From NCBI GenBank assembly GCA_019925095.2, contig CM034412.1, positions 9,628,501 through 9,692,500 on the forward strand: a stretch of 64,000 bases of DNA, read 5' to 3'. Below are positions 43,081-49,398 of this stretch, piece after piece. The notes under the pieces were generated by a model. That model was not told the origin of the DNA. It made no database searches and was given only the letters and a program-made list of their open reading frames with translations. This DNA is from Dendrolimus kikuchii. Its lineage: Eukaryota; Arthropoda; Insecta; Lepidoptera; Lasiocampidae. A program made the translations under genes and the position numbers. Numbering within the stretch: the stretch's first letter is position 1; the number at the start of each line of letters is the position of its first letter.

Positions 43081-43499
43081 GATCCTTACAAAAACTCCAA
43101 TAATGTAACTCGAGGCGTACAAAAATTACCTAAAATCGCGTGCGCTGCGAAAACTATTGATGATGAGCTGTATGTACCCGGCAGACGTTGTCCTGCCCTT
43201 AGAAATAGAAATCTAGAACCGGATTTCAGCGACATTTACGGGGACCAATAGTTAATTATTTCATATACAATTTAATTCATAAACATTGTTCAAAGTGCTA
43301 ATTCTTTAAATATTTCGCATTAAACGTAAAGTATAAACAGTGTGCAATATTTTTATGTTATTGGATTGAATAGTAAGACAGTTTATAGTGAATTATTTGT
43401 GATAACAGTTGCTACCTGATTCTTCATATTCATATTTTGTAAGACCTACCTTCTTGTCGGTAACTGTTTTTGATAAAAGGTTTACAATACAGTAACAAA

Positions 43500-44420
43500 A
43501 TGCTTGGAGGAGTATTACACCCTCAAACTCGCAAAGGGGGAACGCCATTATCTGCGTCTGACTCAAATATCGCCCAGTCAGTTAATCCAGAGGAAGAATT
43601 TCCTGAAAGCAACAATTTAAAGCGTCGCCGAGTTGGTGATAAGAAATCTTCAGATGAGTTCATCGAATTAAAGCAATTTATAAATAATCTGATGCTTAGT
43701 CAAAATAAACGCTTAGATCTCTTGGAAAACCATATAAAAGAAGTGAAAGGCTTAAATACAACCTTGAATACTTCATGTCAAGAAATAGAAAAAAGTCTCA
43801 ATATTATGTCAGATCAAATGAGAAGTGTTGAAACGAAAATTGATTTATTAGAATCGGAGAGGAAATCCATGGCAAATCACGTATTGGAATTAGAAGAAAA
43901 AATTGATAACTTAGAGAGAAATTCTGTTAAGACTAGTATTGAAATTAGAAATATTCCAAAGTTCCCACAGGAAACTAAAGAAATGTTGTACAACATGGTT
44001 CAGAACCTGGCACAATATCTTAACATTAACATTTCTAAATCCGATCTAAGGGATGTCCAGCGCTCCCTTAGTAAACAAGATAAGAAATTTTCTTCAGTTA
44101 TTGTAGAATTTCATAACACTTTTATTATGACAACATTATTAAAGGAGGCAAAAAAGCACAATAAAGAGAACATCTCCAGTCGTCTGAATTCAAGTCATAT
44201 TGGATTGAGCCCCCATAACAATCCCATTTATATATCAGAATATCTCACTGCAAAATCAAGAAGACTTTTTTATATGGCTCGAGAATTCGCCAAAAAACAA
44301 AATTATGCATTTTGCTGGTGTTCAAAAGGTCGGATTTACTTACGAAAAGAACTAGGCTCGGAATATATACTTATAAAACATGAAACTCGTCTAGAGGAAC
44401 TTAAAAATAAGACTAAGTGA
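43500..44420 (+). CDS. LINE ORF1: coiled-coil, baculovirus FP-like RNA-binding protein
   Basis: 306 residues from the first ATG (an upstream in-frame TTG at 43470 is not used as a start in animals). A basic, NLS-like NLKRRRVGDKK lies at 39-49. A long coiled coil spans about 55-140 (heptads such as LLENHIKEVKGLNTTLN and ELEEKIDNLERN). A folded domain begins at SIEIRNIPKFPQETKEML (146-163) and continues to FSSVIVEFHN (197-206). The C-terminal part IYISEYLTAKSRRLFYMARE to YAFCWCSKGRIYLRKE (243-284) resembles the C-terminal domain of baculovirus FP proteins, which occurs widely in insect LINE ORF1s. Probable role: RNA-binding chaperone of the retrotransposon RNP. It ends in TGA followed by CTA. 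Confidence 0.85.
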   Translation: MLGGVLHPQTRKGGTPLSASDSNIAQSVNPEEEFPESNNLKRRRVGDKKSSDEFIELKQFINNLMLSQNKRLDLLENHIKEVKGLNTTLNTSCQEIEKSLNIMSDQMRSVETKIDLLESERKSMANHVLELEEKIDNLERNSVKTSIEIRNIPKFPQETKEMLYNMVQNLAQYLNINISKSDLRDVQRSLSKQDKKFSSVIVEFHNTFIMTTLLKEAKKHNKENISSRLNSSHIGLSPHNNPIYISEYLTAKSRRLFYMAREFAKKQNYAFCWCSKGRIYLRKELGSEYILIKHETRLEELKNKTK

Positions 44421-44424
44421 CTAA
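44418..44424 (+). promoter_or_regulatory. Candidate leaky stop codon (TGA-CTA)
   Basis: The ORF1 stop is TGA at 44418-44420 and the next codon is CTA. UGA-CUA is a known readthrough-promoting context in viral and animal mRNAs. The same frame then stays open to 45542. Function here is inferred. Confidence 0.45.
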
Positions 44425-44525
44425 CCCTGAATTTGATTTTCTTAACTCAATATGTGTCACCCTTAATATTAAGTTTGATTTTTTTCCATCAATTTGTTTA
44501 TTCTGTATTAATAAACTCTCTTATT

Positions 44526-45542
44526 ATGTTAAATATAACATACCATAATACTATTGTAACAAATACTACATATTATAATGATTTTAAATATAGATTTAAC
44601 CAAGCATACATAACTACCCACACATTAGGATACATAATCTCATATACTTATACTCTTTCAAACTCAAAGCCATTCCGTACTTTAAACTATAGCAACACTA
44701 CAGTTAAACTAATTTATGATAATCATCTTAAATATTTTTTCTCTTTCTTGTTCCGGTTTCCATACTCAGCCCAGAATGTCAATATAATATTCTATACAAT
44801 ATGCCTAAGATTTTTAGAATTTTTGTGCTATATTTTTCTGCTTGTGCATTATTTATTAGTTATTATTGTTTATATTGTAACTTTTGTTCAACACAATTTG
44901 AAGCCATTGATAGTATATCTCTGTTACACTAGTATATACACAAAACTTACAGGTCAAACAGGTAAATACCATACCTGTATCTTATTTTTAACCCTCAATT
45001 TAATAATAAATTTTCATTACTTACATATTTATAGTCCAGTAGTAATAGACATGTTTATTATAAACAATATTGCACAATATCATTGTTTATGTATTGTGTT
45101 ATACCTATCTATTAATATTTTATCTAACATCTTTTATTTGTCAAACTCAATATATGTATATATTTACATTTATGTACCTATTTTAAAACACTTCTTCTAT
45201 TATTTTTCTAATTGCTTTTATTTTTTATTTTATATTTCTGTCATTTTTATGCAACAAATGAACAACATTATCTTTTATTTACACAAAGGACCTAAGACAT
45301 ACCTGTATATTATCATACATATTTTGCTTTACTATCTCTTACCACTTTACATGCTTTTGATTAATACAAAGTTCCATAATGTTACACTCATATATAAATT
45401 AATCAAAATAGCCAAAATATTTTTCACAAATTTTTATTTTATTCTTTATATCTCTATTAGACACACCGTACTTAGTTTGTACAACTATAATGAAGATTTA
45501 TTAACAGAAGATTATAACCTGAATATAAATGGCTACACATGA
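44526..45542 (+). CDS. Hydrophobic multi-spanning ORF between ORF1 and ORF2
   Basis: The frame of ORF1 is open from just after the ORF1 stop (44421) to TGA at 45540-45542; the first ATG is 44526, which would give 338 residues. From 44421 it is 373 sense codons. It is rich in Ile, Leu, Phe, Tyr and Asn, with repeated strongly hydrophobic runs (YIFLLVHYLLVIIVYIVTF; FYLFFYISVIF-type segments) suggesting many membrane spans. I recognise no family. It overlaps the ORF2 start by 14 nt. Two readings are possible: a real membrane protein (alone or fused to ORF1 by readthrough), or a spacer kept free of stops so that ribosomes reach the ORF2 start. T-rich DNA encodes hydrophobic residues anyway, so the composition alone does not prove a membrane role. 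Confidence 0.5.
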   Translation: MLNITYHNTIVTNTTYYNDFKYRFNQAYITTHTLGYIISYTYTLSNSKPFRTLNYSNTTVKLIYDNHLKYFFSFLFRFPYSAQNVNIIFYTICLRFLEFLCYIFLLVHYLLVIIVYIVTFVQHNLKPLIVYLCYTSIYTKLTGQTGKYHTCILFLTLNLIINFHYLHIYSPVVIDMFIINNIAQYHCLCIVLYLSINILSNIFYLSNSIYVYIYIYVPILKHFFYYFSNCFYFLFYISVIFMQQMNNIIFYLHKGPKTYLYIIIHILLYYLLPLYMLLINTKFHNVTLIYKLIKIAKIFFTNFYFILYISIRHTVLSLYNYNEDLLTEDYNLNINGYT

Positions 45543-48462
45543 TATCCTCACGGCCGATATTGATGCTTTAACTATTGCTAATACCTTTACATGTTTACCA
45601 GAAAAATGCCTTAAATATATACAGCCGAATAATACTAAGTTAAATATCGTACACCAAAATATACGAAGTATTACTAAAAATCTTGATAGTTTATTGGCTA
45701 TATTAGAAACTACAAATCTTAGCTATGACATTATTACATTATCCGAATGTTGGTTAAATAAGGTACACATAGTTCCTTCACTAACTGACTACACATACTA
45801 TTGTACCGAAAATAACAGAAATCAAAATGATGGTGTAGTAGTGTACATAAAAAATCATCTCAATTTTTTAGTGTCCAAACCGGTATTTTCAGAAGCCAAC
45901 TGCCTACTTTGTCAAGACAATAACGTTGCAATTATAACAATGTATCGTTCTCCTTCTTTCAAAAATTTAGATGTGTTCTTTAATGATTTAAATATACTTC
46001 TAGAATCGCTAAAAAAACTTCAAACGATTATATTGGTAGGAGATATAAATATTAATATTGCTTCTAATAATTTTGATAGTAATCGAGACACATATCTTAA
46101 CTTATTGGCTTCTCATGGTCTGCTCCCAGCTTATGATACAGCTACAAGGAATGACAGTTGTTTAGATCATGTGTTTCTTAGAATAAAAGACAAACCTACT
46201 GTTCTTAAGCTTGAATCTACAATTACTGATCATATACCAGTAATTGCATCTTTAAATTTTACTAATCAAAAAGTTTCTAATAAAACCAAGCGTGTTGTTA
46301 TTGATTATGGCACTGTAGCTAACGATATTAATAATATTGACCTTTCTAGTGTTTTAAAATGCAACGATGCTAACCAAGCGGCTAATATTTTAATTAATAA
46401 AATTCAATCTATAATAATTAAAAACTCGAAGGAAAGTACAATCTCTAAGAAAAAAGTTATATTAAAACCTTGGATAACCCCAGGTTTGCTTAGGTGTATC
46501 CGGCATAGAGACAAATTGCATAAAAAAAGTAAAATGAATCCTGAAAACGAAATTTTATCTCTAAGTTATAAACGTTATAGAAACTTTTGTAACAATTTAC
46601 TGAGAAAAATTAAGAAAGATTATGAAGAAAATGAATTTTTAAAAGCCAAAAATAATCCTAAACAAACGTGGGCAGTTATTAAAACAATTGCCGATTTGCA
46701 TAGTAAATCTTCAACTGCACTAAGTTTAACGCCCTTCAGGTCTAACCCAATGTTAACGATCAATGCTCTTAACAAATTCTTTGTAAATATTGGTAAACAA
46801 TTAGCACAAAAAATTTCATTCATCAATGATTTTTATAAACCTTCCCCCGATAAAATTAACTGTCAGTGTAATTCCTTGGTTTTACTTGATGTAGATGAAG
46901 CTGAAATCGAATCTATAATTTTAAATTTACGTAATGACTGTGCAACAGGTGCTGATGGTATTCCTGCTAAATTTATTATAATGTTCCGTAACATTCTGAT
47001 TCCTTCTATTGTTCACATATGTAATTTAGCTCTTTCTTCTGGTATCTTCCCTGCTTCGTTCAAAGTAGCTCTTGTACATCCCCTCCCAAAAAGTGGTCCA
47101 TCTGACTCTTTTAATAATTTCAGACCTATTTCTGTACTAACTACGCTGTCGAAAATTTTGGAGAGAGTTATAAATAAACGTCTACACAATTATTTGGAAA
47201 CGTATAGAATAATAGCCCAAAATCAGTTTGGTTTTCAACCTGGGGTATCCACTGAAGATGCTGTGCTTAGCTTAACTAATAAAATCGTAGATAGTCTAGA
47301 CAGAAAAGACAAATGCATTGCAATATTCTTAGATCTCTCCAAGGCTTTTGACACCGTATCAAAATCTTTACTTTTAGGTAAATTAGAAAATATGGGAATC
47401 AGAGGAACTTGTTTGAACCTATTTCATAATTATTTATCGCATAGATTACAAAAAGTAAAAATAGAAAACCATTTAAGTAGCGAAATGACATTAGATTACG
47501 GTGTACCACAAGGCAGTGTCCTTGGACCTACCTTGTTTAAAATATACATTAATGAGCTCTGCAAACTACAAATACCACATTGTGAAATAGTGTGCTATGC
47601 AGATGATACAGCACTTTTTATAACTGGATCCAGTTGGGATGATGTAAAGGTTCAGGCTCAGAATGCACTCAAAACAGTCATGGGCTGGTTAAATAATAAT
47701 TTACTCACCTTAAACATCGACAAAACTAAGTTTGTAACGTTCTTTTTATCGGATTCTAGTAAACCCCCTGAAAACTTTTTAATTAAAGCACATACTTGCC
47801 TGTCCTCAACCGAGGGCTGTTCCTGCTTAAGCATATGTAGAGCGGACAACGTTAAATATTTGGGTGTTATTATAGATGAAAATCTGAATTGGCACAAACA
47901 AATTAATAGTGTCTGCGCTCGCGTACGCAAGCTCATATTTGTTATGAAAAAGTTACGTAACTCAGCAGGTAACAAAATTTTAAATCTGACGTATGATGCC
48001 TTGTGTAACTCCATAATAAGATATTGTATACCTGTCTGGGGAGGGTCACATAAAACACATATGCTTAAACTTGAAAGAGCCCAAAGAGCCGTTCTGAAAG
48101 TTATGACGTTCAAACCTTTCTTGTACCCTACAATTCAATTATACCGTGAATGTCAGGTTCTCAATGTAAGACAGATTTATATTTTATGCACTACCCTTAA
48201 AAAGCACTGTGATGTAATCTATCCCTTACCTGATTCCAATTCAATCCAGAGAAGAAGAGAAAAACCATGTCCAATCTTATCATTTAGAACCACTTTTGCA
48301 AGTAAACAATATTCGACAATGAGCTCACATTTATACAACAAAATCGATCACCTCATCAAGATAGTCTCGCTAAGTAAATTCGAAATAAAATACAAATTAA
48401 AACATTGGCTTCTAACTTTCAATTATACAGATACAGAAGAATTCTTATGGATTGGAGAGTAA
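45529..48462 (+). CDS. LINE ORF2: AP-like endonuclease plus reverse transcriptase
   Basis: 977 residues, intact. The N-terminal endonuclease (about 38-242) keeps its catalytic set: QN at 43-44, E73 (LSECWL), YRSPSF at 139-144, GDININ at 171-176, CLDHVF at 211-216 and TDH at 233-235. The RT (about 470-770) shows ATGADGIPAKF from 472, FLDLSKAFD at 600-608, GVPQGSVLGP and YADD at 690-693, then TLNIDKTKF and KYLGVIIDENLNW. A C-terminal region of about 200 residues follows with no RNase H recognised. It nicks target DNA and copies its own RNA at the nick. The start ATG lies 9 nt before the stop of the preceding frame (ATGGCTACACATGA), which suits termination-reinitiation. Confidence 0.93.
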   Translation: MATHDILTADIDALTIANTFTCLPEKCLKYIQPNNTKLNIVHQNIRSITKNLDSLLAILETTNLSYDIITLSECWLNKVHIVPSLTDYTYYCTENNRNQNDGVVVYIKNHLNFLVSKPVFSEANCLLCQDNNVAIITMYRSPSFKNLDVFFNDLNILLESLKKLQTIILVGDININIASNNFDSNRDTYLNLLASHGLLPAYDTATRNDSCLDHVFLRIKDKPTVLKLESTITDHIPVIASLNFTNQKVSNKTKRVVIDYGTVANDINNIDLSSVLKCNDANQAANILINKIQSIIIKNSKESTISKKKVILKPWITPGLLRCIRHRDKLHKKSKMNPENEILSLSYKRYRNFCNNLLRKIKKDYEENEFLKAKNNPKQTWAVIKTIADLHSKSSTALSLTPFRSNPMLTINALNKFFVNIGKQLAQKISFINDFYKPSPDKINCQCNSLVLLDVDEAEIESIILNLRNDCATGADGIPAKFIIMFRNILIPSIVHICNLALSSGIFPASFKVALVHPLPKSGPSDSFNNFRPISVLTTLSKILERVINKRLHNYLETYRIIAQNQFGFQPGVSTEDAVLSLTNKIVDSLDRKDKCIAIFLDLSKAFDTVSKSLLLGKLENMGIRGTCLNLFHNYLSHRLQKVKIENHLSSEMTLDYGVPQGSVLGPTLFKIYINELCKLQIPHCEIVCYADDTALFITGSSWDDVKVQAQNALKTVMGWLNNNLLTLNIDKTKFVTFFLSDSSKPPENFLIKAHTCLSSTEGCSCLSICRADNVKYLGVIIDENLNWHKQINSVCARVRKLIFVMKKLRNSAGNKILNLTYDALCNSIIRYCIPVWGGSHKTHMLKLERAQRAVLKVMTFKPFLYPTIQLYRECQVLNVRQIYILCTTLKKHCDVIYPLPDSNSIQRRREKPCPILSFRTTFASKQYSTMSSHLYNKIDHLIKIVSLSKFEIKYKLKHWLLTFNYTDTEEFLWIGE

Positions 48463-48748
48463 ACACATCATACACTACACCACATACATGCGCACACACA
48501 TACATACATGAATAAACATACACACTTGCACATTTTGGGTCTAAATTTGTATTGTATGAGTAGATAATGCAGCAGAGTACACTAGTAGCTCCAAAGATAC
48601 AGTTAATACTAGTTTTGGAGCTAGTAGAAGCATGAACAATTATTTAGATTATAAGACTGCAAATTGTAATGTGTCTTCATTTTGTATTTAAGATTGTTAC
48701 TTATTTTTGAGGCAAATAAATCATTTTATTATTATTATTATTATTATT
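48463..48748 (+). other. LINE 3' UTR with stem-loop and (ATT)n tail
   Basis: TAGCTCCAAA (48586-48595) pairs with TTTGGAGCTA (48614-48623), a perfect 10-bp stem with an 18-nt loop. The element ends GGCAAATAAATC then an ATTATT run at 48727-48748. RT recognition of a 3' stem-loop is known for several LINEs; its use here is inferred. Confidence 0.7.
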
Positions 48749-49398
48749 AATTGATACCATTCTCGAATCCACTTTAATAAAAACAAAAAAATCATCAAAA
48801 TAGGTCCCAGCGTTTAGGAAGACTTTAGCGGTACTACCTACCGGTAGATCTAGATATATACATATAATCTTAACCATTTCGGGACCCACTTGAACAGGCA
48901 CAAAAATAATTTCACCTAAATATTGTAACTCGATTACAACGCCATCTACCTGGTTCAAATTTGAATCTATACCATCCCGGAACCCATTGGAACACACACA
49001 AAAATAATTTCACCTAAATATTGGAACCCGATTACAGCTGAATTAATTATTTTACATGTATTTTATCAATAAAATAACTCCGACCGAAGCATCTGTTTTA
49101 AACGATATTCAGTTTTTTTACATCCTCTTTGACAATATTTGCAGTCATAAGGTTACATTAAAAAAGTTTATATTGTCCAAAGCGCTAAGGTTAGATCAGA
49201 AAATATTTTATATGGTGGTTAAGTATTCTTGAATTTTCTAATTTTCCGCGCAATTTTCTTATTTTTTTCTTTCATAAGAACCATCTCCTGGCAATAACAA
49301 ACACAACAAAAAAAAAATTGCGAAATCGGTTCAGCCGTTCACGCGTGATGGCGTGACCAAAGGAAATAGGGATTCATTTTTATATACTTATATATAGA

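Follow-up and report, generated by a model that had tools for sequence, protein, structure and literature searches.

A LINE of the moth Dendrolimus kikuchii probably obtains its second protein in two steps: recoding at the end of ORF1 would carry some ribosomes over a sequence-indifferent open frame, here called the bridge, to the AUG of ORF2, where they would terminate and then reinitiate. The element lies in a window of 64,000 nucleotides of contig CM034412.1, and it was compared with other LINE families of the same, single host genome. Across the families we observed conserved putative recoding contexts and open bridges, indels that mostly keep the frame, no constraint on the amino acids and, in most of them, a bridge stop close to an ORF2 AUG; from these patterns we infer the readthrough or frameshifting itself, the start of ORF2 by reinitiation and the stoichiometry. 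Translation of the reverse-transcriptase ORF of two-ORF LINEs is a long-standing question for which few cases have been worked out, and the bridge architecture offers an answer in two steps that is concrete, can be tested and covers many LINE families together.

The LINE in the window and its open frame

The window holds a young copy of a two-ORF LINE, a non-LTR retrotransposon (Table 1), identified by the C-terminal FP-protein domain of ORF1 (Pfam PF25298 Baculo_FP_2nd, E 9e-12) and the reverse transcriptase of ORF2. The nearest named record to ORF1 is K1T71_013620 of Dendrolimus kikuchii, and its relatives also include records from Plutella, Colias, Helicoverpa and Chilo; a coiled coil in ORF1 was judged by look alone. 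Pfam gave no endonuclease family at E ≤ 1, endonuclease-like motifs being recognized by eye only, and a search for relatives of ORF2 in viral contigs found none. The sequence-only reading of this DNA had described an ORF1 ending in TGA-CTA whose frame stays open for 373 codons, and we found the same length, coordinates and stop context.

Table 1. Features of the LINE copy in the window
Feature	Position	Strand	Remarks
LINE copy (young)	about 43264-48750	+	ends approximate: 5' end where near-identical copies L002 and L003 start matching (from 43264 onward); 3' end taken as the (ATT)n tail at about 48727-48750, read by eye
ORF1	43500..44420	+	306 aa; ATG at 43500, TGA at 44418-44420
Recoding site (putative) TGA-CTA	44418..44423	+	readthrough context; TGA then CTA ACC CTG
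Bridge frame	44421..45542	+	ORF1 frame, 373 codons without stop, closing TGA at 45540-45542
Stop-start junction ATG-N8-TGA	45529..45542	+	ORF2 AUG and bridge stop
ORF2	45529..48462	+	977 aa, reverse transcriptase; Pfam RVT_1, E 5.2e-41

The openness had also been called improbable by chance, and our estimates bear this out. The bridge contains 0 stops in its own frame and 41, 26, 35, 35 and 38 in the other five; with the off-frame stop frequency of 0.090, the chance of finding it open is about 5e-16. An open frame could arise by chance on a T-rich, G-poor strand, and TGA and TAG are indeed rare in the bridge because G makes up just 8% of it. However, no fully open sequence appeared among 100,000 simulated with the composition of the bridge under a first-order Markov model, nor among 100,000 under a second-order model, and the bridge recurs in all 29 families of the clade (with one interrupting stop in L068), the P values for openness ranging from 5e-16 to 3.5e-3 per family. 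Given the simulations and the family comparison, chance openness was rejected as scarcely credible.

Besides the window's own copy there are three near-identical young copies; a single inserted base lies in the bridge of two of them and in ORF1 of the third. The earlier reading had counted stops or frameshifts in other young copies against itself; two of the four copies do have the bridge insertion, yet across families the open frame is held.

Putative recoding at the end of ORF1

An in-frame bridge follows ORF1 in 26 of the 29 related families, counts that are not independent as the families are mutually related. ORF1 ends in TGA-C in all 26 and in TGA-CTA in 22; the others have TGA-CAA, TGA-CGT, TGA-CTG or TGA-CCA. 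In the excerpted text of PMC4359377, UGA CUA is the high-readthrough consensus, and the TGA-CAA-TTA of L037 matches the CARYYA motif named there; UGA CUA is also an alphavirus readthrough context in the passages available from PMC3542737. A conserved UGA followed by a stimulatory 3' codon is the pattern expected of programmed UGA readthrough, and predicted readthrough at UGA-CUA is strongly supported by the conservation of the context. RNA structure 3' of the UGA was no stronger than in shuffled sequences under a model without pseudoknots (mean z 0.15, 0/25 below -2).

Bridge length varies from 85 to 373 codons across families (63 in one damaged copy). L053, with wrong coordinates, was left unused and replaced by L072; L080, which is a damaged L087-family copy, and L082, a copy with an internal deletion, were set apart; and L068, an old copy with one extra bridge stop, counts among the 26 and stands outside the junction table and the composition test. 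At the outgroup loci L085 and L089, ORF2 comes directly after ORF1.

The remaining three of the 29 families have a bridge in a shifted frame, chosen as the longest among the alternative frames, which overlaps ORF1, and their ORF1 stop is not TGA-C. The bridge is at -1 in L060, with in-frame A_AAA_AAC twice, and in L077, with A_AAA_AAA and T_TTT_TTA, and at +1 in L063; L060 sits inside the readthrough families as sister to L070 (support 98/93). In a second clade, 13 of the 20 fetched loci had a bridge, 233 nt or longer, seven at -1, five at +1 and one in frame; the shifted ones were chosen in the same way, L101 and L111 being weak taken singly (P 0.003 and 0.006). With the in-frame heptamer T_TTA_AAC in L101, and A_AAA_AAA and T_TTA_AAA in L109, a candidate X_XXY_YYZ heptamer precedes the 0-frame stop within the overlap in L060, L077, L101 and L109. 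The classic slippery heptamer was absent from the last 60 nt of ORF1, with overlaps reaching at most 127 nt, in five of the nine -1 families (L092, L096, L102, L105 and L107), and no shift site was established among the +1 families; L108 has an in-frame A_AAA_AAC and no -1 bridge.

Six of the 20 second-clade loci (L093, L094, L100, L106, L108 and L110) have a short spacer and no significant bridge, in line with a route like that proposed for L1, in which ribosomes terminate where ORF1 stops and get to ORF2 by scanning or reinitiating over the spacer, and the open frame is incidental. In the 29-family clade, however, the spacers in which an AUG was mapped measure 226-1108 nt and contain 0 to 15 AUGs, and neither the openness of the individual families nor the conservation of the recoding contexts fits such a route, which we regard as very improbable.

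Probable selection on the bridge and its stop

In three pairs of families, divergence by codon position was.156/.096/.362 in ORF1 and.380/.372/.351 in the bridge (L027/L034),.168/.133/.345 and.387/.400/.373 (L081/L087), and.208/.075/.396 at the ORF1 end and.356/.384/.365 in the bridge (L105/L109). The codon positions of the bridge being equal in all three, whereas ORF1 is constrained, no protein-level constraint on the extension was detected. The dN/dS comparison that the sequence-only reading had called for gave a divided answer: in the two most useful pairs the extension is relaxed (0.65 and 0.54, vs. 0.11 and 0.17 in ORF1), and the frame is still held open across families. Bridge gaps were multiples of three in 14 of 18 cases (8/10 in L027/L034, 0/2 in L081/L087 and 6/6 in L105/L109), the two gaps of L081/L087, 5 and 7 nt, summing to 12. 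L027 and L034 are stop-free at 37% divergence, whereas neutral simulation of L027 to the same divergence gave 15.3 in-frame stops and no stop-free run in 1000, which argues for selection on the open frame. The corresponding simulations gave 9.8 stops for L105, with a minimum of 2 in 1000 runs, and 3.6 for L081, with 21 of 1000 runs stop-free.

A readthrough ORF1 product with a membrane-like C-terminal module and a job of its own, as the sequence-only reading had proposed, would account for a long, open and hydrophobic frame behind a conserved readthrough context. In 28 families pooled, acidic and basic residues were also rarer than expected (Stouffer z -4.2 and -2.8) and the highest 19-residue hydropathy window was above expectation (+2.4); weak selection on the make-up of the peptide is possible because of these deviations. 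Mean bridge hydropathy, however, equaled the value for stop-free codons drawn at random with matching base composition (mean z 0.14, 28 families), the number of membrane-like windows was as composition predicts (z 0.16), and the hydrophobicity of the bridge comes mainly from its base composition. Such a protein is also at odds with the equal divergence of the codon positions and the range of lengths given above, and it leaves the position of the bridge stop at the ORF2 AUG unexplained; for the window's 373-aa extension, a protein search over 5277 candidates gave no hit at E ≤ 0.01, and Pfam gave none at E ≤ 1. We consider a functional extension protein unlikely. The membrane module was set aside as unsupported on the codon-position rates and the composition-matched simulation; what stands of the proposal is the predicted readthrough at UGA-CUA. 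The bridge may illustrate that a frame can be long and open while its peptide is apparently irrelevant, and it may serve as a caution that an open frame and a conserved readthrough context alone do not imply a functional extension protein.

In 31 of 42 families, the bridge stop is no more than 17 nt from an ORF2-frame AUG (30 with the first AUG for L103). The nearest ORF2-frame AUG was used for L092 (-14, -5) and L103 (-32, -11, locus L116), and the 42 do not include the junctions of L094, L099, L100, L106, L108 and L110, where the spacer is short or ORF2 is in frame. Eleven of the 42 have no such AUG at that distance: the ORF2-frame AUG is farther away in L043 (-29), L061 (-28), L098 (-53), L076 (+23) and L052 (+56), and none was found near the junction in L034, L060, L071, L111, L095 and L102. 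Where the AUG precedes the stop (24 of the 34 tabulated families), the two are on average 2.2 codons apart (2.3 if L092 is entered with its first AUG) vs. 10.8 expected, a closeness reached in 0 of 100,000 simulations. AUGA, AUG-N2-stop and UAAUG recur among the junctions, the last being exact in L027 and L105 (read in L112). Stop and start overlapping or a few nucleotides apart are consistent with coupled termination–reinitiation, for which the excerpts of PMC5972666 give the spacing class of the window's junction. These junctions bear on another reading, by which translation of the bridge protects the long bicistronic RNA, clearing decay factors (e.g., nonsense-mediated decay) or RNA-binding proteins, and ORF2 is started otherwise. 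An open frame of indifferent sequence, with recoding where ORF1 stops, would follow from it as well, but not the proximity of stop and AUG or the recurring forms, and we give it little credence.

Under recoding followed by reinitiation, the reading that we prefer, the majority of ribosomes would halt at the UGA and yield the ORF1 protein. A minority would read through the leaky UGA-CUA or, in sister families, shift by -1 or +1; these would translate the bridge and end a few nucleotides from the ORF2 AUG, where some would reinitiate, and ORF2 output would be the product of the efficiencies of recoding and of reinitiation. The peptide encoded by the bridge would be a by-product, selection acting on the stop-free frame, the recoding site upstream and the stop adjoining the ORF2 AUG. 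We lean toward regarding bridge frames as a class, selected only for translatability, that ferries recoded ribosomes 0.2-1.1 kb to the next start codon in two moth LINE clades, and in which the entry (UGA readthrough, -1 or +1) was switched at least once and the bridge kept. This suggests that recoding mechanisms may replace one another while the outcome stays.

Comparison with known systems

None of the matches listed from the open-access literature, judged by title and opening of the abstract, describes a LINE with stop-codon readthrough, and we did not find two proteins made from one RNA via a leaky stop and a stop-free bridge described there; an earlier description is possible, most subscription papers lying outside the search.

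SART1 resembles the present elements in being a moth LINE with overlapping stop and restart, the UAAUG form being exact in two of our families. The overlapping stop of SART1 is reportedly understood, after Kojima et al. 2005, as ORF1's own; here it belongs to a separate bridge that would be reached only by recoding, and in the 29-family clade it lies 226-1108 nt beyond ORF1. ORF2 of this silkworm non-LTR retrotransposon is expressed by UAAUG translational coupling, as cited in the excerpts of PMC5972666. Human LINE-1 is likewise bicistronic, but has a short inter-ORF spacer of 63 nt, for which unconventional reinitiation was proposed, and no recoded bridge in the same excerpts. Among other non-LTR elements, HeT-A requires frameshifting for gag expression and TART has an unexplained spacer, according to the part of PMC5009743 available.

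The alphavirus replicase and human LDHB, among others, share the six-base UGA-CUA context conserved across our families (PMC3542737 and PMC4359377, in excerpt). Their extensions have a known protein role in these passages, whereas no peptide constraint was detected here, and an extended stem-loop accompanies the alphavirus site, in contrast to the lack of 3' structure in our data. Coupled termination–reinitiation in victoriviruses and caliciviruses uses the same geometries, AUGA, AUG-N2-UAG/UGA and UAAUG, and in victoriviruses it serves a polymerase required in low amounts; the portions of PMC3542737 and PMC5972666 that describe it have no recoding step upstream of the coupling. Gammaretroviral readthrough and -1 frameshifting at gag-pol likewise give a minor recoded product after a structural protein (excerpts of PMC5009743 and PMC3542737). 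There, recoding gives a pol fusion, whereas here the recoded frame would stop at the start of ORF2.

The window LINE and its closest copies

A young LINE lies at about 43264–48750 in the window (see table), and the open frame described by the sequence-only reading, running from an ORF1 stop of TGA-CTA for 373 codons up to the ORF2 start, was confirmed. The other five frames of this stretch, here called the bridge, contain 26 to 41 stops each, and an open bridge was found in 0 of 100,000 sequences simulated at each of two Markov orders. The ORF2 ATG (45529) stands just ahead of the bridge TGA, giving ATG-N8-TGA, and the bridge contains 15 AUGs ahead of it. With 8% G and 42% T, the bridge is markedly poor in G and rich in T; its composition approaches that of the ORF2 third positions in the same element, which is what free drift would give. 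G makes up 7–11% of the bridges of other families examined for composition, except L052/L072 (16–17%). The public gene model of ORF1, K1T71_013620 (383 aa), shares its end with ORF1 and begins with a different N-terminal stretch; in it, a transposon ORF has been given as a protein of the host.

Features of the window LINE, and ORF1 stop contexts or putative entry sites of bridges in other LINE families (L-numbers)
Feature	Position	Strand	Assignment or motif
Window ORF1	43500–44420	+	FP-protein C-terminal domain, PF25298, E 9e-12 (Pfam)
Window bridge	44421–45539, then TGA 45540–45542	+	ORF1 frame, 373 codons without stop
Window ORF2	45529–48462	+	reverse transcriptase, RVT_1, E 5.2e-41 (Pfam)
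L037, ORF1 stop context			TGA-CAA-TTA
L052, ORF1 stop context			TGA-CTG
L070, ORF1 stop context			TGA-CGT
L068, ORF1 stop context			TGA-CCA
L060, -1 bridge			heptamer A_AAA_AAC, twice
L077, -1 bridge			heptamers A_AAA_AAA and T_TTT_TTA
L063, +1 bridge, 185-nt overlap with ORF1			ORF1 stop context TGA-GAT
L101, -1 bridge			heptamer T_TTA_AAC
L109, -1 bridge			heptamers A_AAA_AAA and T_TTA_AAA

The check in other young copies proposed by the sequence-only reading gave a mixed result. Three further copies, about 99.8–99.9% identical to the window LINE over the sequence compared, all keep TGA-CTA. The bridge is open in L004, whose match begins only at 43850 and which has one base inserted in ORF1, but it carries a one-base insertion in L002 (at 45243; ORF2 match limited to residues 1–607 of 977) and in L003 (at 45427). 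The insertions in the three copies resemble routine decay or assembly errors, but they count against a simple claim that all copies are open. Older partial copies are decayed.

Bridges and their proposed entry in two clades

The ORF1 search of the genome, in which the best candidates were scored, gave at least 129 places; we chose 47 loci from the matches to cover apparently different families, and clustering their ORF1 ends at 80% nucleotide identity gave 30 families. With two clusters split at 80–81% joins, and with L082 (a deleted copy) and L085 and L089 (the outgroup) left out, the clade of the window LINE comprises 29 families; all family counts are lower bounds from one host genome and, the families being related, are not independent. 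The bridge lies in the ORF1 frame past the stop in 26 of the 29, among them L068, an old copy whose bridge is interrupted by one extra stop; where copies are undamaged, it spans 85 to 373 codons. All 26 end ORF1 in TGA with C as the next base, and 22 of them in TGA-CTA, so that the stop context and open extension, for which conservation in related copies had been suggested as a check, hold across families. Among the nearest families, 29 re-read loci showed TGA-CTA or TGA-CAA in 28 cases and a full-length bridge in 23.

The three seeming exceptions (L060, L077 and L063) are also bridged, in a shifted frame. In L060 and L077, ORF1 stops with TAA and a -1 bridge with in-frame slippery heptamers overlaps its end. 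The ORF1 tree, poorly resolved in its deep branching order (9 of 28 inner branches open), places L060 within the readthrough families, adjoining L070 (support 98/93), which indicates that the mechanism of entry into the bridge has switched at least once.

For a second clade, we took 20 loci, one per apparent family, from a Pfam search of the genome with at least 150 scored places. ORF1 ends in TAA in 15 of these. Bridges of at least 233 nt were found in 13, seven at -1, five at +1 and one in frame after TGA-CTT, two of them individually weak (L101, P 0.003; L111, P 0.006). Among the seven -1 families, L101 and L109 have classic heptamers near the stop; in the other five none was found in the last 60 nt of ORF1, no shift site was identified in the +1 families, and a heptamer is also present in L108, which lacks a -1 bridge. 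L099, with ORF2 in the ORF1 frame past TAA and no bridge, is a possible candidate for direct ORF1–ORF2 readthrough. Six loci have a short spacer and no significant bridge. Spacers in this clade are long where bridged and short where unbridged, a pattern that fits the route across the bridge proposed below: post-termination scanning may cross short spacers and would not cross long ones.

Conservation of frame and peptide

Divergence at the three codon positions was.156/.096/.362 in ORF1 and.380/.372/.351 in the bridge for L027/L034,.168/.133/.345 and.387/.400/.373 for L081/L087, and, for the -1 pair L105/L109,.208/.075/.396 at the ORF1 end and.356/.384/.365 in the bridge; six more distant pairs aligned too poorly to be used (in-frame fraction 0.38–0.73). 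A simulation in which selection acted against stops and nothing else reproduced the flat bridge rates. Bridge gaps were multiples of three in 6/6 cases for L105/L109 (9, 12, 3, 3, 3, 3), 8/10 for L027/L034 (the others 13 and 1) and 0/2 for L081/L087 (5 and 7, sum 12). Simulated neutral evolution to the same divergence produced a mean of 15.3 in-frame stops in the L027 bridge (none in 0/1000 runs), 9.8 in that of L105 (minimum 2 in 1000 runs) and 3.6 in that of L081 (none in 21/1000). The dN/dS proposed earlier as a check on the extension was 0.65 and 0.54 in the bridges of the two diverged pairs, against 0.11 and 0.17 in ORF1; pairs with few changes gave bridge values of 0 to 0.77. Protein-guided alignment biases these values down. 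These comparisons indicate that the bridge frame is conserved and the bridge peptide is not.

The sequence-only reading had proposed a hydrophobic, membrane-like extension protein. In 28 families, mean hydropathy (mean z 0.14) and the number of membrane-like windows (0.16) were about those of random stop-free codons of matched composition, so the membrane-like look is mainly compositional. However, pooling these families, the best 19-residue window was somewhat above expectation (Stouffer +2.4), and charged residues were somewhat rarer than expected (-4.2 acidic, -2.8 basic); weak selection on the make-up of the peptide is thus conceivable.

The junction with ORF2 and the proposed route

With AUGs assigned mechanically as the first ATG in the ORF2 frame (the second clade read from translations; the nearest AUG used for L092 and L103), an ORF2-frame AUG lies within 17 nt of the bridge stop in 31 of 42 families; the count would be 30 with the first AUG of L103. 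Among 34 tabulated families, the junction is AUGA in seven and AUG-N2-stop in seven, including L092 with another AUG nine bases upstream; UAAUG is found in L027 and L105 (locus L112). In the 24 of the 34 with the AUG ahead of the stop, the stop follows 2.2 codons later on average, compared with 10.8 expected for the next chance stop, a mean reached in 0/100,000 simulations, which is indicative as the families are related. According to a review (PMC5972666), coupled termination-reinitiation takes such forms as AUG-Nx-UGA (x = 2, 5, 8, 14), UAAUG and AUGA; the moth LINE SART1 is named there.

The other eleven families have no AUG that close. In six of these, L034, L060, L071, L111, L095 (locus L114) and L102 (locus L115), ORF2 homology or its conserved N-terminal motif starts around the bridge end, and the junction showed no nearby AUG in the ORF2 frame; they may have non-AUG starts or be decayed copies. 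By eye, L027, L034, L043 and L049 share nine bases, AAATTCGAT (K-F-D in the ORF2 frame), just ahead of or at the ORF2 start, although their bridges have diverged; the nine bases may belong to ORF2 coding sequence ahead of its first AUG, or to an RNA element that serves reinitiation.

At the level of sequence, recoding contexts and the open frame are conserved, constraint on the peptide was not detected and stop and start adjoin in most families. We infer that a minority of ribosomes would get past the ORF1 stop, translate across the bridge and reinitiate at ORF2, giving a low ORF2:ORF1 ratio, and we regard this whole route as probable. Bridges contain 0 to 15 AUGs ahead of the ORF2 start, so that in most bridges scanning would be impeded. 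We found no bridge of this kind described among the papers listed by searches of open-access full text, a coverage outside which most subscription journals fall. Bridge LINEs would work like viral UGA readthrough and coupled reinitiation joined: they share the stop context and open frame of programmed readthrough, but not its protein constraint or 3' structure, and most bridge families have the geometry of coupled reinitiation.
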